DNA of 37,303 bases from a virus: positions 1-37,303 of IMG/VR virus record IMGVR_UViG_3300040806_001299; one strand, 5' to 3'. The position numbers were made by a program, and so were the translations under genes. Shown piece after piece: positions 5,576-37,045 of this stretch. Within the stretch, counting starts at the first letter, position 1. Every line of letters starts with the position of its first letter. The notes beneath the pieces were generated by a model. That model was not told the origin of the DNA, searched no databases, and saw nothing but the letters and a program-made list of their open reading frames with translations.

Positions 5576-5935
5576 ATGTGCGAACCAATTTACGACGTGT
5601 GCGTCATAGCTGGCACTGATTACTATACAGACATTGAATTACTTATGGCTGATGGTACTCCGATTGATTTACTTGGCGCTACTGTAGAATCTCAGCTACT
5701 TGAAACTGATACATCATTAACAAAAGTTGCTGACGTAACTGTAACTATTTTGTCTGCGCTAGAGGGTAAGATTAGGCTTTCGCTAACAAAAACTCAAACT
5801 CAAGACTTACTACCAGTCGCGAGCGAACTTGCAAGCAAAAACTTTGTTTCTGACGTACTTGTTAATTATCCAACTGGCACATCTGAGGTTTTTGTAAGAA
5901 TTAACTATAAAGTTGAGCAGGGGCGTACCAGATGA
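5576..5935 (+). CDS. Small tail/baseplate protein, BppU N-terminal-like
   Basis: A 119-residue, beta-strand-rich protein between the hub gene and the fibre genes. The pattern of a beta sandwich with 'DIELLMADGTPIDLLGA', then 'GKIRLSLTKTQT', then a final 'EVFVRINYKVE' strand resembles the Ig-like domains found at the N-terminus of baseplate upper proteins that anchor receptor-binding proteins. I infer an adaptor between tip and fibre. Its stop overlaps the start of the next gene (ATGAG at 5932). Confidence 0.55.
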   Translation: MCEPIYDVCVIAGTDYYTDIELLMADGTPIDLLGATVESQLLETDTSLTKVADVTVTILSALEGKIRLSLTKTQTQDLLPVASELASKNFVSDVLVNYPTGTSEVFVRINYKVEQGRTR

Positions 5936-7563
5936 GAATTGTAAATGTTTACGAAGGTGAGCTTGGCGATACTGGCACAGCCGGAATTGATGGCGCTGGA
6001 GTTGATGACATTGGATACACAGAATTGTCAAATCCTGTTTTGGACTTGTTTCGAAACAATAAAAAATCTGTAATTGGTGACATAACAGCATCAAGAGCCA
6101 GTGCTGCTTCAATCATTGATAGATACGGTAACAACTTATACTTGCCAGCGTCAACAATTGACAATCAATTGACATACTCAGAAGATTTTAGTCAGTGGAC
6201 TGATATAGCTAGTAGTTGGACATTGCTAGCAACTGGAATTTCAGATCCGCTGGGCGGAAGCAACGCATCAACAATAAGAATTGATCAAGATAACGGTCAA
6301 TTAATGCTTGGTCTTCCGTACAGCGTTCCAGTTTCTGGCACTTATACAGGATCATTTTGGATTAAAAATAACACTGGAACTGTGACTGAAATATCAATCC
6401 AAAAAGACGCAAATGCAGAAATACAAGTAATACCAATTACTGTTACAGGCGCTTGGCAAAGAGTATCCATAAGCTATGCCGAGGACGCAAATGGCACTTT
6501 TTACATAAATGCTCGCGGAACAGTTGGTACAACTTTTGATTTATTTGGCGCTCAAGTTAACACTGGCTCAGCTCTAACTGATTATTTGAAAACAACAGGC
6601 TCTACAGTTTCACAGCCTTTTGCCGGTGAAGTTTTGCGACAAAATCAACTTGGTGCATTAATCGAGCCTCAGGAACAAAACTTACTAAAATATAGTGAGG
6701 ACTTATCTCAGGCGTCGTGGGATATTGCCGGTGCTGATTTATCGGCATGCGATGAAGTTGATATATTCGGCAAGATAAATCAAAACACAAAACTAACATT
6801 TACAAGCACATCAGTAACAGTCGGGCAGTCAGCGACAATAACAGCTGGACAGCAATACACGCTAAGCTTTTGGGTTAAATCGCTAACAGCAAATATTGCT
6901 TCAATAGTTGCTAATGTTGGTGGAATAGTATCGGACATTGATATTGAAAATCTAACAACAGACTTTACAAGAGTATCGGCAACAATAACGGCTGGCAGTT
7001 TGCAAAGTTTTAGCGCATCAGTTACAGCGGAATCCGCTGGCGATATTGTTGTAACTGGTTTTCAGTTAGAGTTTAATTATTTATCAAGCTACACAGAGAC
7101 AGCGCAATTTCCAACTACACGAGCAGCTGATATTGTATCGGTTGACTACGAAAGATTGCCGCTTGGCAATATGCCGTTTACAGTTGTTATGACGCTTAAT
7201 GAGCCTTTTGAGTCAGCATCTGACAAATTTGTATTCAGCAACGGTGATGCTGACGAGTTTAGTGCGAAAATATCTGGCGGTAATTTTGTTGTTACTAATG
7301 GTGCTACTACATTAAGCGTTGATGGTTCAAGGAAAAAATATGAAATAATTTCTGACGGCTCAACAATGATTGTTTACTCCAACTCAGAGTTGCTTGGTAG
7401 TGTTGCGCTTAATTCGCCGAATAGTACAATTGTATCATCGCTATTCATCGGTTGTGACGGTTCAGCAAATCAGCTGGCTGGCTATTTGCAGCTATTTAAA
7501 ATTTACGATAAGGCCCTAACATTTAATCAAATTAGGAGCTTAAGAGGTTCAAGCTATGAGTGA
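5932..7563 (+). CDS. Tail fibre 1: collagen-like anchor, two carbohydrate-binding-like modules, LamG-like C-terminus
   Basis: 543 residues. Residues 9-24 hold a short Gly-X-Y stretch (GELGDTGTAGIDGAG), followed by a helix-prone anchor (NPVLDLFRNN, about 34-43). Two beta-sandwich modules begin with related signatures (LTYSEDFSQW near 84; LLKYSEDLSQASW near 247), a motif common at the start of fibre carbohydrate-binding-like modules. The C-terminal 140 residues resemble a LamG/concanavalin fold (MPFTVVMTLNEP ... GYLQLFKIYDKALT). It is the last but one gene of the tail operon and overlaps its paralogue by 8 bases. Likely a receptor-binding fibre; the ligand is unknown. Confidence 0.75.
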   Translation: MRIVNVYEGELGDTGTAGIDGAGVDDIGYTELSNPVLDLFRNNKKSVIGDITASRASAASIIDRYGNNLYLPASTIDNQLTYSEDFSQWTDIASSWTLLATGISDPLGGSNASTIRIDQDNGQLMLGLPYSVPVSGTYTGSFWIKNNTGTVTEISIQKDANAEIQVIPITVTGAWQRVSISYAEDANGTFYINARGTVGTTFDLFGAQVNTGSALTDYLKTTGSTVSQPFAGEVLRQNQLGALIEPQEQNLLKYSEDLSQASWDIAGADLSACDEVDIFGKINQNTKLTFTSTSVTVGQSATITAGQQYTLSFWVKSLTANIASIVANVGGIVSDIDIENLTTDFTRVSATITAGSLQSFSASVTAESAGDIVVTGFQLEFNYLSSYTETAQFPTTRAADIVSVDYERLPLGNMPFTVVMTLNEPFESASDKFVFSNGDADEFSAKISGGNFVVTNGATTLSVDGSRKKYEIISDGSTMIVYSNSELLGSVALNSPNSTIVSSLFIGCDGSANQLAGYLQLFKIYDKALTFNQIRSLRGSSYE

Positions 7564-8848
7564 TCCAATTGAGATTATAGACGCTAAAAGCAACAAAAAC
7601 ACACTGGTAATTCAGCGCGTTGGAATGAAAGGCGCGAAAGGCGATGACGGCGCTATTGGTACAGGGTTTAATAGCGTTAGGCGTGAAAAGATAGACAATC
7701 CTATCTTGTGGCTATTTAAAAAAAATAAAATAGCAGAAACAATATATCCTAATAATGACGCATCAGACCTATCAATATTAAGAACATCAGAAAAGCGCTA
7801 TATTGATAAATACGGAGTTCTGAAAGTTGCCGCTAACAATGAGTTGCCAGAAACTATTGATGGTTATTTGATCGAGCCAGCAGGAACTAATCTTGTTTCG
7901 CGCTCGGAAGAAATACAAAACGCCGCATGGACCAAGGGGGCTGATTACACAGTAACCGGTAATACTTTGGATATTGCAGATCCATACGGCACTAATTTAG
8001 CGACAAAATTTGAAGCTGGAGCAGCACCTGGGACTTACGCCATTACACAAGCGATAACATCAACTGCAGGATTTCATAGCGGATCAATTTTCATTTACGT
8101 GCCAACCCAGGCCGGTTTAAATGACTTTGGTGTCAAGTTTTACTTTGGCAGCGACGAGGAAAGCGTGATCGGATTAACCGAATTTGATAAGTGGGTTAGA
8201 GTTTCCGCGCCTGTCGACTCAGTTTCGCCATTCGACTTTAAGTTAGGTATAGTTAAAAATGGTGTTGCCAAGCCTGATTTAATTGACTTTTATCTGTTTG
8301 GAGCGCAGGCAGAAAAAAGCATGATTGCAACAAGTTATATAAAAACAGCGGCAACAACAGCTGCAAGGACTGGCGACAGTGTTACGTGTGACGCTTATAA
8401 CAACATGCCGAATATGGCAGAGCCATTTTCTTTTGGTTTAAATGTAAATGTAGACTCAAATCAAACAAGCTCGGCTGTATCTTATATAATCTCATTCGAT
8501 GAAATAGGATCAGTATTTGCCTCATCAAGCCTGGTGAAGCAGACTGATGGCTCTTACTTGTTTAGATACGCGGACGAAACAAATATTAATGACATGGCAT
8601 TTAATAGTCCATTTGACCAAATTGTAACTCTGGTAATAACATTTGACGGATCAAACTTAAAAGCATACATGAACGGGCAGGAGGTTGGCGAGTTTCTTGG
8701 CGTCACAGCAAAGCCAATAAGCGATACAGCATCAAAAGTATTTATTGGTAGACCAATAGGTGCAGCCAGCAATCAATACAACGGTAATTACAGCAACTTT
8801 CGAGTATGGGACTTTGCACTAACACCGGATGAGGTTAGGTACTTATAA
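7556..8848 (+). CDS. Tail fibre 2: paralogue of the preceding fibre
   Basis: 430 residues with the same plan as the preceding gene. It has a Gly-X-Y stretch at about 23-37 (GMKGAKGDDGAIGTG), an anchor motif 'NPILWLFKKN', one carbohydrate-binding-like module starting at 'LVSRSEEIQNAAW', and a C-terminal LamG-like domain (MAEPFSFGLNVNV ... YSNFRVWDFALTPDEV). One module is missing relative to fibre 1, which fits tandem duplication followed by module loss or gain. It is the last gene of the late rightward operon; a bidirectional hairpin follows at 8851-8869. Probably a second receptor-binding or accessory fibre. Confidence 0.75.
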   Translation: MSDPIEIIDAKSNKNTLVIQRVGMKGAKGDDGAIGTGFNSVRREKIDNPILWLFKKNKIAETIYPNNDASDLSILRTSEKRYIDKYGVLKVAANNELPETIDGYLIEPAGTNLVSRSEEIQNAAWTKGADYTVTGNTLDIADPYGTNLATKFEAGAAPGTYAITQAITSTAGFHSGSIFIYVPTQAGLNDFGVKFYFGSDEESVIGLTEFDKWVRVSAPVDSVSPFDFKLGIVKNGVAKPDLIDFYLFGAQAEKSMIATSYIKTAATTAARTGDSVTCDAYNNMPNMAEPFSFGLNVNVDSNQTSSAVSYIISFDEIGSVFASSSLVKQTDGSYLFRYADETNINDMAFNSPFDQIVTLVITFDGSNLKAYMNGQEVGEFLGVTAKPISDTASKVFIGRPIGAASNQYNGNYSNFRVWDFALTPDEVRYL

Positions 8849-17873: not shown

Positions 17874-18389
17874 ATGGCATCAAGAGGAATTAATAAGGTT
17901 ATACTTGTTGGTAATGTAGGGCAAGATCCAGAAGTGCGCTACATGCCAAATGGCGGCGCGGTAGCAAATCTTACACTAGCAACAAGTGAAAGCTACAAAG
18001 ATAAAAACACAGGCCAGCAAGTTGATAAAACCGAATGGCACAAGGTTTCCTTCTTTGGCAAGCTGGCGGAAATTGTAGGCGAGTATGTCCGAAAGGGATC
18101 GCAAATTTACATTGAAGGTAAATTGCAGACTCGCAAATGGCAAGACCAGCAAGGTCAAGACCGCTACACAACTGAAATTATTGTTGATGGCTTTAGTGGT
18201 GTTATGCAAATGTTAGGTGGTAAAAATGAACAGGCAAATCAAAACAACCAGCGGCAAAACCAGCAGCAACAAGGAGGCTTTAACAACCAGCAGCAAGGTG
18301 GCTTTAACCAACAACAAAACCAAGGCTTTGCGCCGCAGCAACAGCAAGGTGGATTTGCACCGCAGCAAGGTCAAAGCCAGCAATTTTAA
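17874..18389 (+). CDS. ssb: Single-stranded DNA-binding protein
   Basis: 171 residues. The N-terminal 110 residues are a classical SSB OB fold ([64 protein letters not shown]). A Gln/Asn/Gly linker with about five QQGGF-like repeats follows. The protein ends in GQSQQF rather than the usual acidic DDDIPF tip that binds host repair and replication proteins; only the final Phe is kept. It coats single strands during phage replication. Ribosome site AGGATA. Confidence 0.95.
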
Positions 18390-21110: not shown

Positions 21111-21159
21111 TATAGGTATACACTCAGTAAAAATACACAATAAACAAACAAGGTGAATT

Positions 21160-21708
21160 ATGAAAATAGATACGTGCAAATTGAGAGCTGCGGACGCATT
21201 TAGAGCGAAAGGCGATATTAGGAATTACTTAAACGGAATTAGAATAAACAATAATTACATACAAGCAACAAATGGGCATATTGCAATACAAATGGATAGC
21301 GGAGTAAAAACAAGGCTTGACGTTATCGTTAGGTTTAAAGGGAAAATCCCACCCAAGTCTCAAAAAACAAAGCTTGAGTTTAGTAAGGGTAAAAATATTG
21401 CATACCATTATGATTCGCTAGGTGAGTTAATATCAGCTCAGGTTTTTGATATTGAGGATGGTAAGTACCCGCAATTTGAAAGAATAATTCCTGAAAAAAT
21501 GGTTAAAGGTAGCCAATTCCCACCGCTAAATATAGATTACATGGCAGTAATAAAAAAAGCTTTTCCAAGAGAAAGTTTCATGGCTGTTAGGCCTATTAAT
21601 TACGATAAAAACAAAGCGGTAATTTATGAAGTGACAGAGTTTCAAAAGCACCTTTACGGAAACCCAGTTATCATAATTATGCCTACTAGATGGGTGATGA
21701 ATAAATGA
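21160..21708 (+). CDS. Short sliding-clamp-like protein (DnaN-related)
   Basis: 182 residues, half the length of a bacterial beta clamp (about 366). 'YLNGIRINNNYIQATNGHIAI' (23-43) matches the clamp repeat pattern of a strand pair ending in A-T-D/N-G-H. 'FDIEDGKYPQFERIIPE' (96-112) is the DGKYP ... IP motif, and the C-terminus 'NPVIIIMPTRW' resembles the 'IMPMRL' end of DnaN. It therefore seems to hold one to two clamp domains. It could form a phage clamp by oligomerising or interfere with the host clamp (inference). AGGTGAATT site before ATG. Confidence 0.65.
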   Translation: MKIDTCKLRAADAFRAKGDIRNYLNGIRINNNYIQATNGHIAIQMDSGVKTRLDVIVRFKGKIPPKSQKTKLEFSKGKNIAYHYDSLGELISAQVFDIEDGKYPQFERIIPEKMVKGSQFPPLNIDYMAVIKKAFPRESFMAVRPINYDKNKAVIYEVTEFQKHLYGNPVIIIMPTRWVMNK

Positions 21709-28194: not shown

Positions 28195-28884
28195 ATGACG
28201 TTTGATTTATCTAAAGTTGAAGGTTTATCGGAAGACCAAATTGCAGCAATTACAGCGCAGCATAATACAGCAGTTGAGCAAGAAACGGCTGGTCTTGTGA
28301 ATAAAACACAAGAGCTATTGAACGAAAAGAAGACTGTTCAAGCTACAGCGCAAGAGCAAGCTCAAGCATTAGAGCAAGCGCGACAAGCGGCAGTAAAAGC
28401 GGAAGAAGAAAGATTAAAGCTAGCTGGTGATATGGACGGATTAAAGTCTCACTACGAAAGCCAACTTGCGGAGCAGACAGCAATCGCTCAGCAAGAGGCG
28501 CAAAACGCAAAGCAAGCACTTGAAAGAGATAGGAAAAACACAGCCTTAAATGGCGCTTTATCGCTAATTCACGATGACTTCAAAGACGTGTCAAGTGCTT
28601 TATTGGATTCAATGATTAAAATTGATTATAATGAACAAGGCGAAGCATTAACAAAATTTATGAAAGATGGTAATGTTGTCGCTAATAGCGTTGATGAGTT
28701 CAAAGGTTGGGCTGCTGAACAAGATTCGTTTAAGCGCATTATGAATGGTGTCAATTCAAGTGGCGCAAATTCAACAGGCGGAAATGGTGGCGGAGCCTCT
28801 AGTTTTGCTGGTAAACAATATTCAGAGATGAGTGCGGCAGAAAAAACAGCTTACCTATCTCAAGTTAAAACTATTAGAAACTAG
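28195..28884 (+). CDS. Scaffold-like protein
   Basis: 229 residues. Residues 20-125 form an Ala/Gln/Glu-rich coiled coil, followed by a short globular part ('NGALSLIHDDFKDVSSALLDSMIKI'), a Ser/Gly linker (SSGANSTGGNGGGASS) and a helical C-terminus (YSEMSAAEKTAYL). Length, coiled coil and position before the capsid gene fit a capsid scaffold. No protease gene is visible, so the scaffold may exit intact. Confidence 0.8.
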   Translation: MTFDLSKVEGLSEDQIAAITAQHNTAVEQETAGLVNKTQELLNEKKTVQATAQEQAQALEQARQAAVKAEEERLKLAGDMDGLKSHYESQLAEQTAIAQQEAQNAKQALERDRKNTALNGALSLIHDDFKDVSSALLDSMIKIDYNEQGEALTKFMKDGNVVANSVDEFKGWAAEQDSFKRIMNGVNSSGANSTGGNGGGASSFAGKQYSEMSAAEKTAYLSQVKTIRN

Positions 28885-28895
28885 GAGAAACGAAA

Positions 28896-29849
28896 ATGGC
28901 TTTAGGTGATTTTCAAATCTTTAATGATTACGCATACCGCGCGTTCGCTGTAACATTGCAGGGAAACGTGCAGTTATTTAATCAAGGAACACGCGGCGCT
29001 ATTGTGTTGGACACAATGGCATTTGCAGGTGATTTACATCAAAAGGCGGCTTTTGAAAACTTAAGTTCGCTTGTTGGCAACCGAAACCCAGCATCAACCG
29101 CAGCTGCAACAACTCACGCCCTTAAAGAGTTACTAAAAATCGACACTAAAGTCGGTTGGGGCACTCCAAACATTGAGTACACAAATACATCATTTGACTG
29201 GACTAATCGAGATCCTAAAGAAGCAGGCCGTTTATTTGGCGAAGATATTGCTCAAGGTGCTTTATGGTACATGCTTAACTCTGCGCTTTACAGTGCTGTA
29301 GCTGCAATTGATGATGCAGATGTAACATATGACGGCACAGCTGGCACAGCGAGCTTAGATTCACTAAATGCTGGCGCTGCAAAGTTTGGCGATCGTCAAA
29401 TGCAAATTGCTGCATGGGTTATGCACTCTAAATCAATGAATGATATTTGGGGTAACTCGTTACAAAACTCAAACCGACTATTTGAATTTGGCAATGTTGC
29501 TATTGTTTCAGACCCATTTGGCCGACCTTTAGTTTATACGGATTCTGATGCTCTATTCTTTGATAATGCAGGTACTAACAACTATCACCAGTTGGGCTTG
29601 GTTGCTGGCGGTATCTCAGTGCAAGATCAAGGTGATATGCGCTCTTATGAAGATCTCGACTTGTCAGAAGAAAATGCCAAGCAAATTATGAAAGCCGAAG
29701 GTTCTTTTGGTTTGGGTATCAAAGGTTATACATGGGATAAGACTGTGACAAAACCGAATGATGCAGCATTGGCTAATGCAGCAAACTGGAGTCGTGTTAC
29801 TGACTTAGGTCACAAAGATACAGCCGGCGTAATTGTTACAACACTTTAA
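28896..29849 (+). CDS. Major capsid protein
   Basis: 317 residues, ribosome site AGGAGA. Starts MALGDFQIFNDYAYRAF, with 'GTRGAIVLDTMAFAGDL', 'AGRLFGEDIAQGALWYMLNSALYSAVAAI', 'WVMHSKSMNDIWG' and 'FGNVAIVSDPFGRPLVYTD'. The latter two are the strand and loop patterns seen in the P-domain of HK97-fold capsids. The position directly after the scaffold fits. There is no obvious N-terminal cleavage region. Confidence 0.88.
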   Translation: MALGDFQIFNDYAYRAFAVTLQGNVQLFNQGTRGAIVLDTMAFAGDLHQKAAFENLSSLVGNRNPASTAAATTHALKELLKIDTKVGWGTPNIEYTNTSFDWTNRDPKEAGRLFGEDIAQGALWYMLNSALYSAVAAIDDADVTYDGTAGTASLDSLNAGAAKFGDRQMQIAAWVMHSKSMNDIWGNSLQNSNRLFEFGNVAIVSDPFGRPLVYTDSDALFFDNAGTNNYHQLGLVAGGISVQDQGDMRSYEDLDLSEENAKQIMKAEGSFGLGIKGYTWDKTVTKPNDAALANAANWSRVTDLGHKDTAGVIVTTL

Positions 29850-29858
29850 GGAGGTGTT

Positions 29859-30026
29859 ATGTCTAACAAGAAATTATATAAAAAAAGCGATGTAGTTTTA
29901 ACTTATGATGACAAAAAAGTAACAGCGGCATCATTTGAATTACACGACTTTAAAGATAAAGAAGTTTCTGGCGAAGATTACTACGTTGCCAAAGCAATTA
30001 AGCTTGGCGCAAAAAAAGCGAAATAA
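29859..30026 (+). CDS. Small basic capsid-adjacent protein
   Basis: 55 residues with a near-perfect site (AAGGAGGTGTT before ATG). Lys-rich, beta-type (KKLYKKSDVVLTYDDKKVT), ending GAKKAK. Position right after the capsid gene and strong translation suggest a decoration or stabilising protein, which is inference. Confidence 0.7.
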   Translation: MSNKKLYKKSDVVLTYDDKKVTAASFELHDFKDKEVSGEDYYVAKAIKLGAKKAK

Positions 30027-30052
30027 TAAAAGCCAAAACGTAAACCAAAAAA

Positions 30053-30094: not shown

Positions 30095-30760
30095 ATGAGT
30101 AATACAAGAGACGGGCTATTAGCTCAAATTATTGTCGCACTAGGCGGCACAGTGAGAAACCATAATAACAGAAATATGCTACTAGAAGATTGGCGCGACG
30201 CTGTTGGAGGTGGAGCACCTACAGAGAGGTGGTATTTCTCTGGTAATGGTGTAGACCAATACATAAATCTAGCAAATGAAATTTCACTGTCTGGCGATTT
30301 TGAATTTAAAGCATACTTAGAGAGAAACACAACAAGTGCAACTGCTATTTTTGGTGGCACAAACCTCAGTAGGTGTTACGAGCAAGTAGATGGGAGAATA
30401 GAGATAGCTGACAGCGCAGGGATTAATATTAATGGCGTCCTAACCGACATAGCTAATGGAGAGTTATACTATTTGGAGCTGAAAAGAGTTTCCGGAACTA
30501 TATCAGCATACGTAAATGGTGAGTTTAAGGGGGATGGAACCTACAGCGATACTGTAAGTATAACTGGTATCATGAGGCCGCAAGTAATAACCAAATTGCG
30601 CACAGGTAGGGTTTATAACGTAGTTATAATTGACAATGGAACTGAAGTTTTAAACATGCCGCTAGATGATAGCTTTGCAAACAACCCTACAGCAAGGAAC
30701 ACAGTCGGCGATAATGCTACAATCATAAATGCAACGGGGGCATCATGGACTCTAGAGTAA
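30095..30760 (+). CDS. LamG/concanavalin-like surface protein
   Basis: 221 residues. An N-terminal helical 'DGLLAQIIVALGGTV' precedes a beta-sandwich: 'ERWYFSGNGVDQYINLANEI', 'DFEFKAYLERN', 'YYLELKRVSGTISAYVNGEF', 'RVYNVVIIDNGTEVLNMPLDDS'. This is the usual LamG-type strand pattern with the closing 'GR-V-Y-N' motif, as in the tail fibres of this phage. It lies among head genes, so it may decorate the capsid or bind host or mucus glycans (inference). Confidence 0.72.
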   Translation: MSNTRDGLLAQIIVALGGTVRNHNNRNMLLEDWRDAVGGGAPTERWYFSGNGVDQYINLANEISLSGDFEFKAYLERNTTSATAIFGGTNLSRCYEQVDGRIEIADSAGININGVLTDIANGELYYLELKRVSGTISAYVNGEFKGDGTYSDTVSITGIMRPQVITKLRTGRVYNVVIIDNGTEVLNMPLDDSFANNPTARNTVGDNATIINATGASWTLE

Positions 30761-31038
30761 TAGAAAAGCACGCTTTTATTCCGCTAGCCTTGTATGATGA
30801 GCATTCACAAATAAGGCCTAACGCTGTCAGTATTGGCAATAGTAAAGTTATCACTTACGCTGAAAGCGAAAAAGGTTCGATGAGAGCGCTAGCTGAGTCT
30901 ACTGGATTTGAGATTAAAGAAGATCAAACAGTTGATGCAGTTATCGCGGCTATCGAGTTAGGCATTGATGCTATTTACGTTACATCAACTCAACAAGCAA
31001 GAGAGGTTGCTTATCATTTTGGAGGTGTTGACGAATGA
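30745..31038 (+). CDS. Unknown small protein
   Basis: 97 residues, overlapping the LamG gene by 16 bases and the next by 4 (ATGA). It has an alpha/beta pattern (VDAVIAAIELGIDAIYVTSTQQ) without known motif. Not recognised. Confidence 0.65.
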   Translation: MDSRVIEKHAFIPLALYDEHSQIRPNAVSIGNSKVITYAESEKGSMRALAESTGFEIKEDQTVDAVIAAIELGIDAIYVTSTQQAREVAYHFGGVDE

Positions 31039-31208
31039 CACGCAACGAGCTGTTAAATCTCATTGGTATTGCATACGGTTTACCAGACGATGACTGTTGG
31101 AGAAATTGCGAGCTAGATAGAATCATAAACATCTTATCTGGCGGAACTGTTACACCATCAGTCACAATGAATGGCAAGCTTCGACAGATACTTGCTTTAA
31201 CTGTATAA
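31035..31208 (+). CDS. Unknown small protein
   Basis: 57 residues, coupled by overlap to the previous gene; GGAGGTG upstream. It resembles the N-termini of neighbouring surface genes: a short helix (NELLNLIGIAYG) then 'DCWRNCELDRIINIL'. It may be a small adaptor. Its stop lies 2 bases before the structured non-coding region. Confidence 0.6.
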   Translation: MTRNELLNLIGIAYGLPDDDCWRNCELDRIINILSGGTVTPSVTMNGKLRQILALTV

Positions 31209-31210
31209 TG

Positions 31211-31320
31211 ATTTTGCGGTTGCCTTGGCAGGGCCGCAAAATGTGGAGCGCTCCCGACCTACTGCCAATACTGCCAATCACTAAGGAATAACGCTCAAAG
31301 GATGAGCTTGCCTGCCAAGG
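31211..31320. other. Highly structured non-coding element
   Basis: No gene lies in 31209-31345. A 9-bp perfect stem, ATTTTGCGG (31211-31219) with CCGCAAAAT (31234-31242), encloses a 14-base loop. CCTTGGCAGG (31223-31232) is the exact inverted repeat of CCTGCCAAGG (31311-31320), so it can alternatively close a 100-base domain. Inside that domain are the perfect palindrome GGAGCGCTCC (31245-31254), a tandem direct repeat ACTGCCAAT (31261-31269, 31270-31278), and the hairpin GCTCA/TGAGC (31293-31307). The first stem and the long-range pairing are mutually exclusive, as in a switch. I do not recognise the RNA class. Confidence 0.65.
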
Positions 31321-31345
31321 TTGTTTGACATTGGAGAAATGACAA

Positions 31346-32590
31346 ATGTCTATAAGAAATAAACAACTTGAAGAAATATTGTCAGCAATACAATCTGACT
31401 CTGGATTGGTTGGTAGAGTTAATGTAACTAGCGCGGCTGATTTATCTGGCACACTGGATTCAACCAAAGAATATTTTATTGATGGCGTTATTGATATGGG
31501 CAGCCAGTCTATCGAAGTTCCTGCTGGCGGATTATATTTATCTGGCTATAATTTCGATACATCAAAATTAATTTCAAGCGCAGATAATTACACAATGTTT
31601 ACATCACCAGCTGGTGGTAGCGGAAATATCCTTGGTAAAGATCTAACTTTTACAGTAAGCGGCGCTGGCTCATCATTGTGGGGCATAACTGGCGCTACAG
31701 GTGATGAAGCGATAGAGTTTGACAAAGTAAACTTTAATGATTGCACATCACTTGGATTCATTGATGACTATAGGCAGTATCTGGAGGTTGGTTCTGGCAG
31801 ATTTGGCGGCACGCCGGCTTTAGAATTTAGGGGCGCTTGGAGCGGTGCAAGGATTTCTACGTCAATTGTTCGTGGATTATCTAACTTATCTTCTATATTT
31901 AAGGCTGGAACTGGGTTAACTATGAGCGGTAGATTCATCACAGATATTAACTGTGACCTACCAGCCACAGGGGCACTTACTGACCTTGGAGAAGCAAATA
32001 TACTTAATGATGAGTCAATGGTTTTGCAAGGGGCGTTTATAACTCGCTCCGGTGTTGTTGATCCAACTGATGCAGGCATTACACCAAATATCAGTGCAGA
32101 CTCTGTTAAGTCAAACTGGGATTCTAACACCGGTGTAGCCAACACAAACAAGTATATAAAATCAATTTTAAGCACTGCGGTTGAAACTGTAATATCCGCC
32201 ATTGATACTTACACGCCATTACTGGGAACGTTTACAGTTGAAAAGGCGGTGCATTTTGACCAGCCATCAAACGGTGAGTTTCAGTGCTTAACTGGCATAG
32301 GTGACTATCTAATAACAGGTGACTTTGCAATACAAGGTACAGCAAATAACGTTATTGATGTCAGGGTTACAAAATCAACTGATGGCGGTTTAACTTACCC
32401 TACAGAACTAAATCACATATCAAGAACTGTAAATAACCTAGTTGGGCCAGATGACGTTGCGTTTTTCCCACTTAACTTTATTGCGAATCTAGCGAAAGGT
32501 GATAGGGTTAGAGTTGAGATAGAGAATAAAACGTCTAGCGATAATGTCACCGCTAGACAAGACAGCTTTATCATACTAACAGAAGTATAA
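31346..32590 (+). CDS. Large beta-rich surface/fibre protein
   Basis: 414 residues. A short helical N-terminus (NKQLEEILSAIQ) precedes a long Gly/Ser/Asp-rich, beta-helix-like region (YFIDGVIDMGSQSIEVPAGGLYLSG ... FDKVNFNDC...), then a beta-sandwich C-terminus (VEKAVHFDQPSNGEFQCLTG ... GDRVRVEIENK). The pattern is that of head fibres or receptor-binding proteins. GGAGAA precedes ATG, directly after the structured element, so that element may be its 5' UTR. Confidence 0.68.
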   Translation: MSIRNKQLEEILSAIQSDSGLVGRVNVTSAADLSGTLDSTKEYFIDGVIDMGSQSIEVPAGGLYLSGYNFDTSKLISSADNYTMFTSPAGGSGNILGKDLTFTVSGAGSSLWGITGATGDEAIEFDKVNFNDCTSLGFIDDYRQYLEVGSGRFGGTPALEFRGAWSGARISTSIVRGLSNLSSIFKAGTGLTMSGRFITDINCDLPATGALTDLGEANILNDESMVLQGAFITRSGVVDPTDAGITPNISADSVKSNWDSNTGVANTNKYIKSILSTAVETVISAIDTYTPLLGTFTVEKAVHFDQPSNGEFQCLTGIGDYLITGDFAIQGTANNVIDVRVTKSTDGGLTYPTELNHISRTVNNLVGPDDVAFFPLNFIANLAKGDRVRVEIENKTSSDNVTARQDSFIILTEV

Positions 32591-32618
32591 AAAAAGCCCA
32601 AAAAGCAAAACACATACC

Positions 32619-32647
32619 AAAAGCGATAAGCCATATTATCGCTTTTT
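32619..32647. terminator. Bidirectional terminator at the accessory insert edge
   Basis: AAAAGCGATAA (32619-32629) and TTATCGCTTTT (32636-32646) form an 11-bp stem with a 6-base loop and T tracts on both strands. It serves the rightward surface genes and the leftward cassette ending at 32675. Confidence 0.82.
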
Positions 32648-32674
32648 CAACTTTGCAAAACGGTTTTAATTCCT

Positions 32675-32833
32675 TCACTTGCTTCCCTTAAATTTATCAA
32701 ACTCAGATTTACTAACACGCTCACCATTAATGCGGTAAGTAACCTGCTTAGACTTCACATTATTACGTGCTGCAATCTTCCAAATCTCATCACAGCGCAC
32801 TTGTTCATTACCACCAAAATTACCTTGTAACAT
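32675..32833 (-). CDS. Unknown small protein, leftward accessory operon gene 4
   Basis: 52 residues: MLQGNFGGNEQVRCDEIWKI then a basic helical end (SKSEFDKFKGSK). AGGTGATTT precedes ATG, the same ribosome box used elsewhere in this phage. Last gene before the bidirectional terminator. No family recognised. Confidence 0.6.
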   Translation of the reverse strand: MLQGNFGGNEQVRCDEIWKIAARNNVKSKQVTYRINGERVSKSEFDKFKGSK

Positions 32834-32836
32834 AAA

Positions 32837-32968
32837 TCACCATATCCAATTAATAATAATATCTAAAACCTTTGGCCCAACTAAAACATAGCCAATCGCA
32901 AAGCCAATCATTAAACACAACATAACATAAGTTGCATATTCAAAAACAAAATCAATAAATTTAATCAT
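32837..32968 (-). CDS. Single-span membrane protein, leftward accessory operon gene 3
   Basis: 43 residues with a hydrophobic core (YVMLCLMIGFAIGYVLVG) and an amphipathic end (ILNIW-type). AGGAGGTG precedes ATG. It overlaps the upstream gene by 8 bases. Function unknown. Confidence 0.6.
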   Translation of the reverse strand: MIKFIDFVFEYATYVMLCLMIGFAIGYVLVGPKVLDIIINWIW

Positions 32969-33128
32969 CCCACACCTCCTTAATTGTATCAGATTCAAGT
33001 TTTCGCATTTCGTGTTTGGCTTTTAATTCTGCGTAATATTCGACTTTCGCCTTTTCGTAATCCTTTTGAGCCTGCTTAATCATATTGATTCGGTTGCGTT
33101 CAATTTCTAAATCTTGCTCAGTTATCAT
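32961..33128 (-). CDS. Small charged helical protein, leftward accessory operon gene 2
   Basis: 55 residues, almost wholly helical and charged (QAQKDYEKAKVEYYAELKAK), likely a coiled coil. AGGTGATTT precedes ATG. It is linked by overlaps to genes on both sides. Confidence 0.6.
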   Translation of the reverse strand: MITEQDLEIERNRINMIKQAQKDYEKAKVEYYAELKAKHEMRKLESDTIKEVWDD

Positions 33129-33439
33129 AAATCACCATTTACCTTCATAGAATAAAGCATAAAATCAATAGCTGAACACTCGTGCGCAACAACCATTTCT
33201 TTTTTTACTGTTTGAAGCCTTGCCGCGTTTATGGCTGAGCAATTATCAACTATCAATATGTAATTACCAATTTTCACGTAACAAATTAACTCACCATCAG
33301 AGATAAATCTAACTGGCTCGACAATATCAATTTCAGTAAAGCCAAAAAGTGTTCCACCATCCTTGTGCCAGTTAATATTATAGATAAAACCTTCACAAAG
33401 CATGCCGTGGTACAGGGCGCTAGTTATTGTAAGTTTCAT
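33125..33439 (-). CDS. Unknown protein, leftward accessory operon gene 1
   Basis: 104 residues, beta-rich (IYNINWHKDGGTLFGFTEIDI; LICYVKIGNYILIVDNC), soluble, four cysteines. AGGTGAATT precedes ATG. It heads a four-gene leftward operon inserted between capsid and connector genes, divergent from the rightward accessory genes. No family recognised. Confidence 0.65.
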   Translation of the reverse strand: MKLTITSALYHGMLCEGFIYNINWHKDGGTLFGFTEIDIVEPVRFISDGELICYVKIGNYILIVDNCSAINAARLQTVKKEMVVAHECSAIDFMLYSMKVNGDL

Positions 33440-33595
33440 AATTCACCTCGTTTGTTTTTTATCACTATAAACACGTATAAATAATTTATCTAGCGAATTA
33501 AATCGATTAAACAGATAATCGGTAATCGAAAAAATGAATTGGATATTTTTACAAGCTTGCGAAATAATAACATCAACAAAACAGAGAGGTGATTT
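33440..33595. promoter_or_regulatory. Divergent control region of the accessory insert
   Basis: About 155 bp between divergent genes. Rightward candidate: TTGGAT near 33537, 18 bp, AATAAT near 33562. Leftward candidate: TATAGT-type -10 in the complement near 33466. Both are weak matches. The region also carries a 17-base copy of the 3' end of the downstream gene (33553-33569). Confidence 0.4.
33553..33569. repeat. 17-base direct repeat, upstream copy
   Basis: AAGCTTGCGAAATAATA here is identical to 33911-33927, which encodes the end (KLAK-stop) of the next gene. In frame it would read Y-K-L-A-K-stop. This suggests the tail of a lost upstream paralogue. Confidence 0.6.
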
Positions 33596-33925
33596 ATGAG
33601 TAAAGAATACGAAATACACGCAGATTGCGAAAATACATACATTGGAATACTTGGTGTTGCATCAATAAACATACCAACGAAGGAGCTTGCTTCTGGCTTG
33701 AGAGATGGTGTCGAATCATTTTTTGATCTTAATTCAGATGGCAGTGTCACAATAGCATCATATATAGAGTCTTCTTTGTACGAAGATGATCTTTTAATTG
33801 GAAAAGAAAAAATAGATGTAGCAGATTGGATTATTACTGCATCTGATGGTAGTGATGATATAAAGAATGCCTTAAGCGCTATAAAAATAATCGAAAAGAA
33901 ATTGCTTGATAAGCTTGCGAAATAA
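33596..33925 (+). CDS. Unknown accessory protein
   Basis: 109 residues, acidic, with beta-type 'YIGILGVASINIPTKELASG' and a helical end (NALSAIKIIEKKLLDKLAK). AGGTGATTT then ATGAGTAAA, repeated before the next gene. No family recognised. Confidence 0.6.
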   Translation: MSKEYEIHADCENTYIGILGVASINIPTKELASGLRDGVESFFDLNSDGSVTIASYIESSLYEDDLLIGKEKIDVADWIITASDGSDDIKNALSAIKIIEKKLLDKLAK

Positions 33926-33951
33926 TAGACTAAACATTTAAGGAGTGATTT

Positions 33952-34371
33952 ATGAGTAAAAAAGAAAGAAGTAGCGCGCACGTTGATTCAGTTGAGCTGC
34001 TTGAGTTTATATTCCCAACCCATTTTGGCCTTAGCGATTCAGAGGAATACAACATAAGCAGCAAAGGAATAAGTAACAGCTACATGTTTCTTGACTTTAA
34101 AAATAATGGCTTTGCGCTTGTTAATGTATTTAGCATACTACTGCAGAGGAAAGTGAAATACAAAGAGCTTAACTTTGCAGCTCTTGAGGTTTTTGCAGGG
34201 CTTTTGCCAGAGACAGGTGATTTCATTTGCGGAATAAGTCGGGGACATGAAACGGCAATGGTAGACATAAATACACCAAAAGGCATTAACTTGTTCGCCA
34301 GAAAAGGAACGGAAGCCGAGCTTGCTGAATGCAGAAAGAACGTAGGATTCACACCAATACTGGTTAAGTAA
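33952..34371 (+). CDS. Unknown accessory protein
   Basis: 139 residues, mixed alpha/beta, no membrane segment. 'SYMFLDFKNNGFALVNVFSILLQRK' and 'GDFICGISRGHETAMVDINT' are its most regular parts. The start context (GTGATTTATGAGTAAA) is identical to that of the previous gene. No family recognised. Confidence 0.6.
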   Translation: MSKKERSSAHVDSVELLEFIFPTHFGLSDSEEYNISSKGISNSYMFLDFKNNGFALVNVFSILLQRKVKYKELNFAALEVFAGLLPETGDFICGISRGHETAMVDINTPKGINLFARKGTEAELAECRKNVGFTPILVK

Positions 34372-34374
34372 ACT

Positions 34375-34785
34375 GTGTATAAATTCAAAAACAAAACCAC
34401 AAGCGAAGTAATAACAACGCCATACCTGGCAGAAGCGGAAGAATACCGCAGCAACATTAATTATATAGAGGTGAATATGAAACCAGTATACACAAAAGAA
34501 ATGCATGAGCGCGGTGAATGGCCGCCGGTTGGGAGCATTGTTAATTACTGCGTTGATGAAGTTGAGGTTTTAATCAATAAACCAGACACTGATGGCTGTA
34601 TAATTATCATTATGAGAGGTGAGTATTTGCCAGTAAAGATTGATAAAATAAAACCAATCCCAACAATTGAAGATGATGTTGCCGGCATTATTCATCAGTT
34701 TTGTGATGAATTAACATTTAAAGATTCAAATATTGCAGCAAAGCAAATCTTGAACAAATACAACATAACACCAAAAGACAGCTAA
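34375..34785 (+). CDS. Unknown accessory protein, possible two-start gene
   Basis: 136 residues from GTG 34375. An in-frame ATG at 34477 has an excellent site (GAGGTGAAT), while the GTG has none, so a 102-residue form from 34477 is likely the main product. The first 34 residues (MYKFKNKTTSEVITTPYLAE...) read like a complete small protein, suggesting a fusion or a nested start. The C-terminal part is beta-rich then helical. No family recognised. Confidence 0.55.
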   Translation: MYKFKNKTTSEVITTPYLAEAEEYRSNINYIEVNMKPVYTKEMHERGEWPPVGSIVNYCVDEVEVLINKPDTDGCIIIIMRGEYLPVKIDKIKPIPTIEDDVAGIIHQFCDELTFKDSNIAAKQILNKYNITPKDS

Positions 34786-34787
34786 AT

Positions 34788-34816
34788 TTCAAACAACCGA
34801 AAAGTAATGTTATACT
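34788..34816 (+). promoter_or_regulatory. Promoter of the connector/tail operon
   Basis: TTCAAA (34788-34793), 17 bp, TATACT (34811-34816) with an extended TG at 34808-34809. It resembles the promoters at 21081 and 23784 and sits upstream of the connector gene. Confidence 0.5.
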
Positions 34817-34818
34817 TA

Positions 34819-34846
34819 AGTCAAGTTGAACAGCTTGGCTTTTTTT
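34819..34846 (+). terminator. Terminator abutting the connector start codon
   Basis: AGTCAAG (34819-34825), 8-base loop, CTTGGCT (34834-34840; one G-T pair), T run to 34846. The ATG of the next gene begins at 34847 with no space for a ribosome site. Confidence 0.65.
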
Positions 34847-35389
34847 ATGCCTTTAATTGTAGAAGATGGAACAGTTGTTCCTAACGCTGATAGTTTTTTA
34901 TCTTTAGTTGACGCTAGAGCGCTTGCGGCTAATTACGGAATCACATTACCAACTGATGACACTGACGCAGAAGTTAAGTTGCGTCTTGGCTATAATTATT
35001 TATTGACGCAAGAATCTCAACTATCAGGTCAACGAGTAAGCTCAGAGCAAACTGGTATTTATCCGCGACAAAATGCTTACGCAAATTGCTTTCTTGTTGA
35101 CAGCGATGTGATACCTCAAGAAGTTAAATTAGCTCAGCTATACAGCACAGACGCAATCAACTCTGGCTTGGATGTAAACGAAACAAGCGACGGAAGTCAG
35201 CTAGAGTCATTTGAGGTTGTTGACGTTTACAAAGAGTCATATAAAGCATCGTCAAGCACAACTTTCAACACTCGAATTAAGGGTGCTATCAATGCACTTA
35301 ACCCGCTAACCAAAAGCTACTTATCTAAAGTTTGCGGTCTTGGCTCTGGCGGCGGTTTATATCGCGGAAGCATGGGGTATTTACCGTAA
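34847..35389 (+). CDS. Head-tail connector protein (DnaT-like family)
   Basis: 180 residues from ATG 34847 (MPLIVEDGTVVPNADSFLSL), the typical start of the 'putative DnaT-like' phage family, which sits between capsid and tail genes and probably acts as an adaptor. 'LDARALAANYG' and 'GYNYLLTQESQLSG' support this. A TTG at 34826 would add 7 residues. No Shine-Dalgarno precedes the ATG. Overlaps the next gene by one base. Confidence 0.75.
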   Translation: MPLIVEDGTVVPNADSFLSLVDARALAANYGITLPTDDTDAEVKLRLGYNYLLTQESQLSGQRVSSEQTGIYPRQNAYANCFLVDSDVIPQEVKLAQLYSTDAINSGLDVNETSDGSQLESFEVVDVYKESYKASSSTTFNTRIKGAINALNPLTKSYLSKVCGLGSGGGLYRGSMGYLP

Positions 35390-35769
35390 TGGCTAGCAGT
35401 GATATTCGCGCTAAGATTGCGAAAGGCTTAAAAAAAGCAGTAGCAAAAACTGGCTCTAGCGCTAGTGAGCCTGTTTACCTTGTGCAAAAAACCGTTACGC
35501 CTGGCAATCCTTTATCACCTGGAACTGTAACATCAAATGATGTTTTACTAAAAGATGCGATATTCAAATCATACGACAAGAATTTAAATGACTCGAACAT
35601 CAAAACAGGTGATAGGCAACTTGTATCGCAATACGACGTACCAATTAAAACTGGTGATGTTGTAAAGCAGGGCGCAACTACCTATCTAGTTATAAGCGTT
35701 GATGAGCGAGCGCCAACAAGCGATACTTTAATTTATTTTGCACAATGCAGGGTTAGCGGTAATGCTTAA
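35389..35769 (+). CDS. Head closure/neck protein
   Basis: 126 residues from ATG 35389 (TAATG overlap with the connector); an upstream in-frame TTG lies in the connector gene and is rejected. Beta-rich: VYLVQKTVTPG, YDVPIKTGDVVKQGATTYLVISV. Size and position fit the stopper or head completion slot (lambda gpFII / SPP1 gp16 type). Family not certain. Confidence 0.65.
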   Translation: MASSDIRAKIAKGLKKAVAKTGSSASEPVYLVQKTVTPGNPLSPGTVTSNDVLLKDAIFKSYDKNLNDSNIKTGDRQLVSQYDVPIKTGDVVKQGATTYLVISVDERAPTSDTLIYFAQCRVSGNA

Positions 35770-36196
35770 GGGTAGAAAGCGGCTAGATGCTGCAATAAAA
35801 GAGCGGATAGAGGCGCTTAATATTGGTGTTAAGTCTATTTACTTTGAGGCGCTTAAAGCTATTGTCAAAATGACACCAGAGGATAAGGGGCGAGCAATCC
35901 AAGGCTGGTTTTTGAGTGTTGCAAATCCATCAAGCGCACTGACTGGCGGCGGTGTTGCTCAGCTCTCAAAGATGCCAAAAAACGTTCTTGGTAAAAAAAT
36001 ATTCTTTACTAACAGCACACCTTACATTAACAAGCTTGAGTATGGCGGATTTCCAAGCCCTGTAAAGAAAGGTAGTTGGGATAAGGTAAGCGAAAGTTAC
36101 GTTAAACTTTCCGCTAACGGTTTTAGTGAGAAAGCACCAAATGGTTTTGTTAGAGTTAACTTAAAGCGTGCACAAATGAAGATTAAGCAATTATGA
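35762..36196 (+). CDS. Tail completion protein (HK97 gp10-like)
   Basis: 144 residues from ATG 35762, overlapping the previous gene by 8 bases. 'FFTNSTPYINKLEYGGFPSPVKKGSWDKV' and 'KAPNGFVRVNLKRA' match the tail-completion/gp10 type motif (N-x-x-P-Y-x-x-x-x-E-Y-G and A-P-x-G-F-V-R). It joins tail to head. Confidence 0.78.
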   Translation: MLKGRKRLDAAIKERIEALNIGVKSIYFEALKAIVKMTPEDKGRAIQGWFLSVANPSSALTGGGVAQLSKMPKNVLGKKIFFTNSTPYINKLEYGGFPSPVKKGSWDKVSESYVKLSANGFSEKAPNGFVRVNLKRAQMKIKQL

Positions 36197-36639
36197 GCCA
36201 TAAAGCGATTAGAGATACAATTTTAAATCATGCACTGACTAACTTGCCTGCTGGAATAACAGATCAAGATATTGTTTTCGATGGCCAGTCGCTTGATTCT
36301 CAGCTTGGAAAGTCTAGCTTTTTAGCGTTTTATTATGCTCCAGTTGATGCGCCTAGAACTGCAAAAAACATTGAAAGCTCAAAGCAAAATGAGGGCTTTT
36401 TTCAGATTTCATGCTACACAGCTAGAAACGACTCAGCAGGCGGTGTAACAAATTACGACAATGATTTACTAGCCTTGGTTGACTCAATACAGTCAGCATT
36501 CGACCAAGTTAATCAAATAACTTATAATGGTCAGGAAGTAAGCATAACAGATGTAAGAGCTAATCAAATGCAATATGACGACTCTTACATTAAGCAAGAT
36601 GTAACAATTGATTTTATAGCATATACAGCGAGGATTTAA
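36193..36639 (+). CDS. Tail terminator protein (DUF4128-like)
   Basis: 148 residues. 'AIRDTILNHALTNLPAG', 'GFFQISCYTARNDSAGG' and 'DVTIDFIAYTARI' fit the DUF4128/gpU-type terminator that caps the tail tube. Start overlaps the previous gene (ATGA). It lies directly before the tube gene. Confidence 0.78.
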   Translation: MSHKAIRDTILNHALTNLPAGITDQDIVFDGQSLDSQLGKSSFLAFYYAPVDAPRTAKNIESSKQNEGFFQISCYTARNDSAGGVTNYDNDLLALVDSIQSAFDQVNQITYNGQEVSITDVRANQMQYDDSYIKQDVTIDFIAYTARI

Positions 36640-36640
36640 C

Positions 36641-37045
36641 ATGGCTGAAGAAATTAACGGCACAAACGTCATTATTCAAAAAGGTTCACCAGCAGCTGAG
36701 ATTGTTGGTCAGGCAGAGATTACGCACACTATTGGCGGAACGCCGATTGATATTAGTAATAAATCAGCTGGTGACAACATACTTCTATTAGATGGCGAAG
36801 TTTCATCTCAACAGCATGTTTTTAGCGGCACTTGTGTTTATAATAGTGACACTGAGTTTCAAGCAATGCTTACGGAGTCATTAACTTGTACTCAAGATGA
36901 TTACACGATCACATACCCAGGCACAACGCCAGTAACATTCACAGGTAAGTTTGCGCCAAGCGGAGTAGCTATTGCATCACCTCATGGCGACAAGGTTACA
37001 GCAACCTTTACATTAAGCTCATCTGGCGCTGTGACTAAATCGTAA
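36641..37045 (+). CDS. Major tail tube protein
   Basis: 134 residues, beta-rich. 'NGTNVIIQKGSPAAEIVGQAEIT', 'DISNKSAGDNILLLDGEV' and a C-terminal 'GDKVTATFTLSSSGAV' strand pair match the TP901-1-type tail tube pattern (D-x-S-x-K-x-x-x-G). It polymerises around the tape measure. Its stop shares a base with the chaperone start (TAATG). Confidence 0.83.
   Translation: MAEEINGTNVIIQKGSPAAEIVGQAEITHTIGGTPIDISNKSAGDNILLLDGEVSSQQHVFSGTCVYNSDTEFQAMLTESLTCTQDDYTITYPGTTPVTFTGKFAPSGVAIASPHGDKVTATFTLSSSGAVTKS

Follow-up and report, generated by a model that had tools for sequence, protein, structure and literature searches.

A candidate cis-regulatory leader with alternative pseudoknots precedes interchangeable accessory genes in a marine phage and its relatives

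Phage morons are genes that possess their own promoter and terminator. Pseudoknots have been described in few phage mRNA leaders. The leader of T4 gene 32 contains an H-type pseudoknot upstream of the ribosome site, and a 2010 review considered this to be perhaps the sole viral pseudoknot that functions in translational autoregulation (PMC3014915). A different arrangement is found in the immunity leader of satellite phage P4, where the CI RNA pairs with the seqA and seqC sites of its own leader, leading to termination (PMC4825925). Binding sites for CsrA are hairpins that expose GGA in the loop, and these are usually paired (PMC4333381).

The window analysed here is the whole of an IMG/VR virus record of 37,303 bases, representing a marine phage whose major capsid protein shows 78% identity to its counterparts in the Pseudoalteromonas phages HS2 and BS5. 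The element is located 3' of the capsid gene, among accessory genes and upstream of the head-tail genes. It precedes a gene at 31346 that probably has a role in capsid decoration, judging from its position after the capsid gene. A Pfam search with the encoded protein gave no match, and since structure prediction returned a pLDDT of 39, with the fold not resolved, the label "fibre-like" applied to this gene in the initial annotation is unproven. This accessory gene resembles a moron in having its own promoter-like site and a terminator-like hairpin after it, but differs in its long structured leader, which recurs by plan. Alignable leaders are present in four more contigs (L007, L059, L060 and L061), making five close leaders with the window. 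The features of the locus are as follows:

31035..31208, plus strand: upstream gene of 57 aa, the 3' end of which falls within the promoter
31181..31209, plus strand: sigma-70-like promoter TCGACA-17-TATAAT, 11/12 positions matched
31211-31219/31234-31242, plus strand: 5'-terminal hairpin S1 of the leader, 9-bp stem, loop of 14
31224..31231, plus strand: anti-repeat CUUGGCAG within the S1 loop, complementary to R1-R3, identical in all five close leaders
31223-31232/31311-31320: 10-bp inverted repeat, the left arm being the S1 loop
31245-31254, plus strand: palindromic hairpin P, GGAGCGCTCC
31260-31277: exact 9-base tandem repeat TACTGCCAA
31262..31268, plus strand: repeat R1, CUGCCAA, complement of the S1 loop
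31271..31277, plus strand: repeat R2, CUGCCAA, likewise complementary to the S1 loop, unchanged across the five close leaders
31293..31307, plus strand: hairpin H3, GCTCA-AAGGA-TGAGC, between R2 and R3; stem identical in all five close leaders, loop AAGGA or GAGGA
31312..31319, plus strand: repeat R3, CUGCCAAG, with 10-bp pairing including flanks in the window
31323..31347, plus strand: hairpin H4, UUUGACAUU-GGAGA-AAUGACAAA at 31324-31346, whose loop carries the ribosome site GGAG
31346..32590, plus strand: downstream accessory gene, PHROG 16509, a family without assigned function
32619..32646, listed on the minus strand: terminator-like hairpin after the accessory gene, recognised from sequence, with a T-run on both sides

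The promoter is the best and only plus-strand site of such quality in the window; a second 11/12 match (TTGGCA-16-TATAAT, 18517-18490) is found on the minus strand. Its TATAAT box is identical in all five close leaders, being retained in L061 despite a different upstream gene. Transcription is predicted to start at approximately 31216, inside the first stem S1, and no sense-strand terminator-like site (a G+C-rich hairpin with a T-run) was detected between 31209 and 31345 on the plus strand. The element looks like the beginning of a transcript with this predicted start. Its previously proposed extent (31209-31345) does contain the structures, but the unit starts at the promoter, at 31181 rather than 31209.

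All of the structures named in the initial annotation are present where it had placed them, and the element itself is genuine. Both the tandem and the inverted repeat exist, although the tandem units and the right arm of the inverted repeat turn out to be the same motif, CTGCCAA, which occurs in three copies (at 31262, 31271 and 31312), each complementary to the loop. Because the left arm of the 10-bp repeat is the S1 loop, an H-type pseudoknot can accommodate both S1 and the long pairing, and the competition that had been envisaged between this repeat and the 9-bp stem is not required. In principle, the S1 loop can select among the three repeats. Hairpin H4, which had not been noted previously, includes the AU of the start codon in its stem.

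Chance expectation was assessed with 3000 dinucleotide shuffles of the 137 nt. Inverted repeats of at least 10 arose in 0.3% of shuffles, hairpins of at least 9 with a loop of up to 20 in 0.9%, two inverted repeats of at least 9 in 0.03% (with no instance among 547 tiles of the window) and an exact 9-base tandem in 0%, while a 10-nt palindrome alone appeared in 13% and hence is not rare. The view that the pairing exceeds chance is borne out by shuffles and tiles for the inverted repeats, the hairpin and the tandem, but not for the palindrome, which is unremarkable when taken alone. Folding, which had been suggested as a check, gave a nested minimum-energy structure of ordinary stability (z of +0.44 for the plus strand and -1.6 for the minus strand), as is to be expected if the key pairing is a pseudoknot.

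Among the close leaders, a 27-nt stretch surrounding the ribosome site is invariant across all five, and the remaining leader shows 75-86% identity. The S1 stem of L007 carries a G-C to A-U double change and also a U.G to C-G change, and the pairing between R3 and the loop retains 8 pairs in every close leader, in L060 by means of U.G and G.U. The palindrome is GGGAGCGCTCCC in L007, L059 and L061 as opposed to GAGTAGCTACTC in L060, where the probability of a 12-nt palindrome in that spacer is 0.0017. On this comparison, S1, the long pairing (S2) and the palindrome are kept by compensatory or G.U changes. A column-wise test for covariation, another of the checks suggested beforehand, was not significant with the five alignable sequences (110 of 500 shuffles reach the observed value). 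The RNAalifold consensus of these leaders missed the pseudoknot, and the L060 palindrome is out of register in the alignment. A further contig of 6149 bases (IMGVR_UViG_3300040751_002455) is 100% identical to positions 30654-36802 of the window, and so does not represent an independent relative.

The leader is retained with two upstream and three downstream gene types. In L061 the upstream gene is different, and homology to the window sets in at the promoter, at 31198; in L007 and L060 it is the downstream genes that are different, and homology stops at 31388 and 31377 respectively, within the first 15 codons. Since the neighbouring genes differ while the -10 box and leader are kept, the segment made up of promoter, leader and first codons behaves like a movable cassette in front of exchangeable genes. 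No such leader precedes most of the homologues of the downstream gene, to which it is therefore not essential. The proposed search for homologues that have lost the pairing thus has a two-sided outcome: the leader is missing from most of them, but those leaders that exist keep the pairing with other letters.

Database searches are consistent with the original impression that the element belongs to no recognised RNA class, as no Rfam 15 family reached its gathering threshold, whether the window or L007, L059, L060 and L061 were searched. Searches for similar DNA in phages and plasmids yielded nothing above chance, and an exact-pattern search of host genomes gave 40 scattered matches with no common group, which we take to be chance. 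A covariance model (R1) found no further strong copy in cultured phages and 369 genomes, a set that may hold few or no genomes of the host genus.

Searching for relatives via the capsid gene and two upstream genes provided none or few loci, and the downstream protein provided 80. When these 80 loci were searched with a covariance model, only weak matches were seen beyond the close family (L075, L076, L082), the best scoring 23 bits (L118). Seven distant loci found via the downstream gene family are without recognisable sequence similarity but have a common plan, consisting of a -10 box, a hairpin, a palindromic hairpin and at least three repeats complementary to the loop, followed by the gene:

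L083: S1 loop UGAGGG; palindrome GGTCGCGCGACC; repeats CCCUCA, UCCCUCG and CCCUCA
L131: loop UGAGGG; palindrome TGACTAGCTAGTCA
L110: loop UGAAGGG; TGAGTCGCGGCTCA; extra repeat copies
L118: loop GUGAAGGGG; recognised by eye only
L153: loop GGUGAGAGG; palindrome GCTAGCGCTAGC
L134 and L140: loop UUGUUGGGA; palindromes CTGTCGACAG (L134) and ATGTGCACAT (L140)

The palindrome is at the equivalent place in six of these, and their -35 boxes appear poor by eye. Distances of the repeats from the -10 box are nearly constant (R1, 46-52; R2, 57-64; R3, 74-81, or 96-102 with an intervening hairpin), and each leader offers its own loop 2-6 sites, although the excess of repeats over shuffles is weak in L060, L134 and L140. 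The loop codes are mostly self-specific. None of the seven distant leaders contains a site for the window loop. G.U pairs allow the UGAGGG loop to match the UGAAGGG leaders as well, and for the L134/L140 loop the window family offers one or two weak sites.

This plan was first spotted by eye in several loci and the scanning program was written afterwards. It ignores sequence and scores a -10-like box, a hairpin, a palindrome close behind and at least two exact loop complements. Scores of at least 22 were obtained in the 600 nt upstream of 6 of 70 homologues versus 2 of 210 shuffles, and when 767 kb were scanned on both strands all eight hits of at least 26 proved to be leaders (three from the close family and five distant), the shuffled maximum being 25. 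The window has a plan score of 36 with no second hit, and six cultured phages gave one borderline score of 22 (BS5) and nothing convincing.

Our best reading is that of a phage cis-regulatory leader that would control interchangeable accessory genes through alternative pseudoknots. We assign a probability of about 0.6 to the element being the ~130-nt 5' leader of a separate transcript for the gene at 31346, which it would regulate through docking of the loop on the repeats. Among the functions suggested in the initial annotation, a cis-regulatory RNA is supported by the promoter-like site at the 5' edge, the compensatory pairing, the ribosome site in the last hairpin, the lack of a sense-strand terminator-like site before the gene and the recurrence of the plan in other phages. 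Comparison supports a function at the RNA level; the pseudoknot in the cell, the step that is controlled, any trigger factor and any role in trans are inferred. RNA polymerase would initiate at about 31216 and S1 would fold first, exposing the anti-repeat in its loop. As R1, R2 and R3 emerged, during or after transcription, the loop would dock on one of them to form a pseudoknot enclosing P. The docked repeat might then decide access to the ribosome site in H4, protection or stability of the 5' end, or whether transcription continues, and the leader would thereby set the expression of a freely exchanged gene independently of the main late transcript.

In most leaders the repeats are, by eye, partly complementary to the ribosome site (CCAAU/AUUGG in the window, where the site lies in H4, CCUCA/UGAGG in L083 and UCCCU/AGGGA in L118, with L153 a poor case), which favours translation control. 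On the other hand, C-rich, G-poor repeat tracts (L153, L083 and L134) and U-runs after the repeats (L083 and L131) favour attenuation. The potential for an H-type pseudoknot, retained in all five close leaders, recalls T4 gene 32; in that case gp32 binds a leader with a single pseudoknot and, after it, an unstructured A+U-rich stretch, whereas here one loop has three alternative partners and there are extra hairpins. A leader type that recurs before exchangeable genes with its letters replaced, and with the loop still matching three repeats, would constitute a further regulatory RNA class, if true. Because such leaders conserve pairing rather than sequence, they would be missed by ordinary sequence and Rfam searches and may be commoner than is apparent.

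It is possible, though we regard it as unlikely, that the element is instead a transcription attenuator of the P4 immunity type, whereby the S1 loop (like seqB) would pair with the repeats (like seqA and seqC) of the same or another transcript so that transcription would end early, perhaps through the action of Rho on the C-rich tract of repeats; a trans-acting S1 RNA might also arise by processing. A segment that has its complement at more than one place within its own leader, as seen here in the loop and its three repeats, follows the logic of P4 (PMC4825925), and the C-rich tracts, U-runs and mostly self-specific codes point in the same direction. P4, however, has two sites, one on each side of the CI RNA, whereas here there are at least three and all are downstream of the loop. 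Moreover, the P4 leader controls replication genes by termination, in contrast to the structural-region accessory gene present at this locus, and no sequence relation was noticed. The repeat tract of the window is not G-poor (C 0.28, G 0.21), and the 3' end of a stand-alone RNA is not evident, which also argues against the phage-encoded sRNA that had been put forward. The leaders appear to mix P4 and T4 gene 32 features, and we have assigned them to neither class. A further and doubtful reading is that these leaders form a new class of phage RNA in which each lineage has its own loop/repeat code, the leader recognising its own kind in cis and in trans as an RNA password that would switch capsid-decoration genes and set the compatibility of co-infecting phages.

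It is improbable that the leader acts as a host CsrA/RsmA binding site, with translation repressed by CsrA through the GGA of the H3 loop and that of the H4 loop, which lies over the ribosome site. All five close leaders keep a GGA in each of two hairpin loops as well as one single-stranded AGGA, but this likeness to CsrA/RsmA-repressed leaders is confined to the window family and not general among distant leaders; GGA is common at ribosome sites, and the match between loop and repeats would be left unexplained. A DNA site for surface-gene exchange, or a shared block that merely guides homologous recombination, is about equally improbable: homology between phages does begin or stop at the element edges (31198 in L061, 31377-31388 in L060 and L007), yet such a site has no need of pairing kept by G.U, replaced letters, a promoter or an invariant ribosome site. 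What stands of the suggested recombination site is a passive block of shared sequence with genes swapped at its edges, a site-specific site being unsupported; passive guidance of recombination may operate alongside an RNA function. A packaging signal, also suggested, found no support. Finally, it is extremely improbable that the element is a self-cleaving ribozyme related to RAGATH-5 (RF02685), as the weak resemblance over 53 nt (at best 22.5 bits across the whole 53-position model, E 0.063 over all Rfam, with matches also in L059 and L061) is far under the gathering score of 50, is absent from L007 and L060, which keep the reported pairing, concerns a different helix that has non-standard pairs here, and is accompanied by matches in 8 of 14 control genomes at loose E-values.

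Several other observations were made in the surrounding region. Three adjacent accessory genes share related short N-termini (30095-30211, 31035-31145 and 31346-31400; RN.LL..I) while their bodies differ, and this shared stretch may be a capsid-docking peptide; in L061 the first of the three genes is reduced to a 39-aa N-terminal piece. Contig L015 shows 86% identity to the window up to the scaffold gene, followed by an unrelated-looking major capsid protein (28767-30029) and homology again from 30030, which suggests a swap of the capsid gene itself. In L110 (2455-2503) only a short gap separates the downstream gene from its neighbour; the ribosome site there is similar, GACGTTGGAGAAATTGAAATG, and the leader is absent; this junction resembles the L061 site minus the leader. 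A tRNA search found none, and the window encodes an SSB at 17874-18389 and two successive tail-region proteins with Laminin_G_3 (concanavalin-like) domains (5932-8848). The small-gene region contains a direct repeat (33523-33607 and 33888-33963, 74% identical), relatives of which occur in L007, L015, L060 and L061; a short match to it in inverted orientation lies at 21139-21165 of the window.
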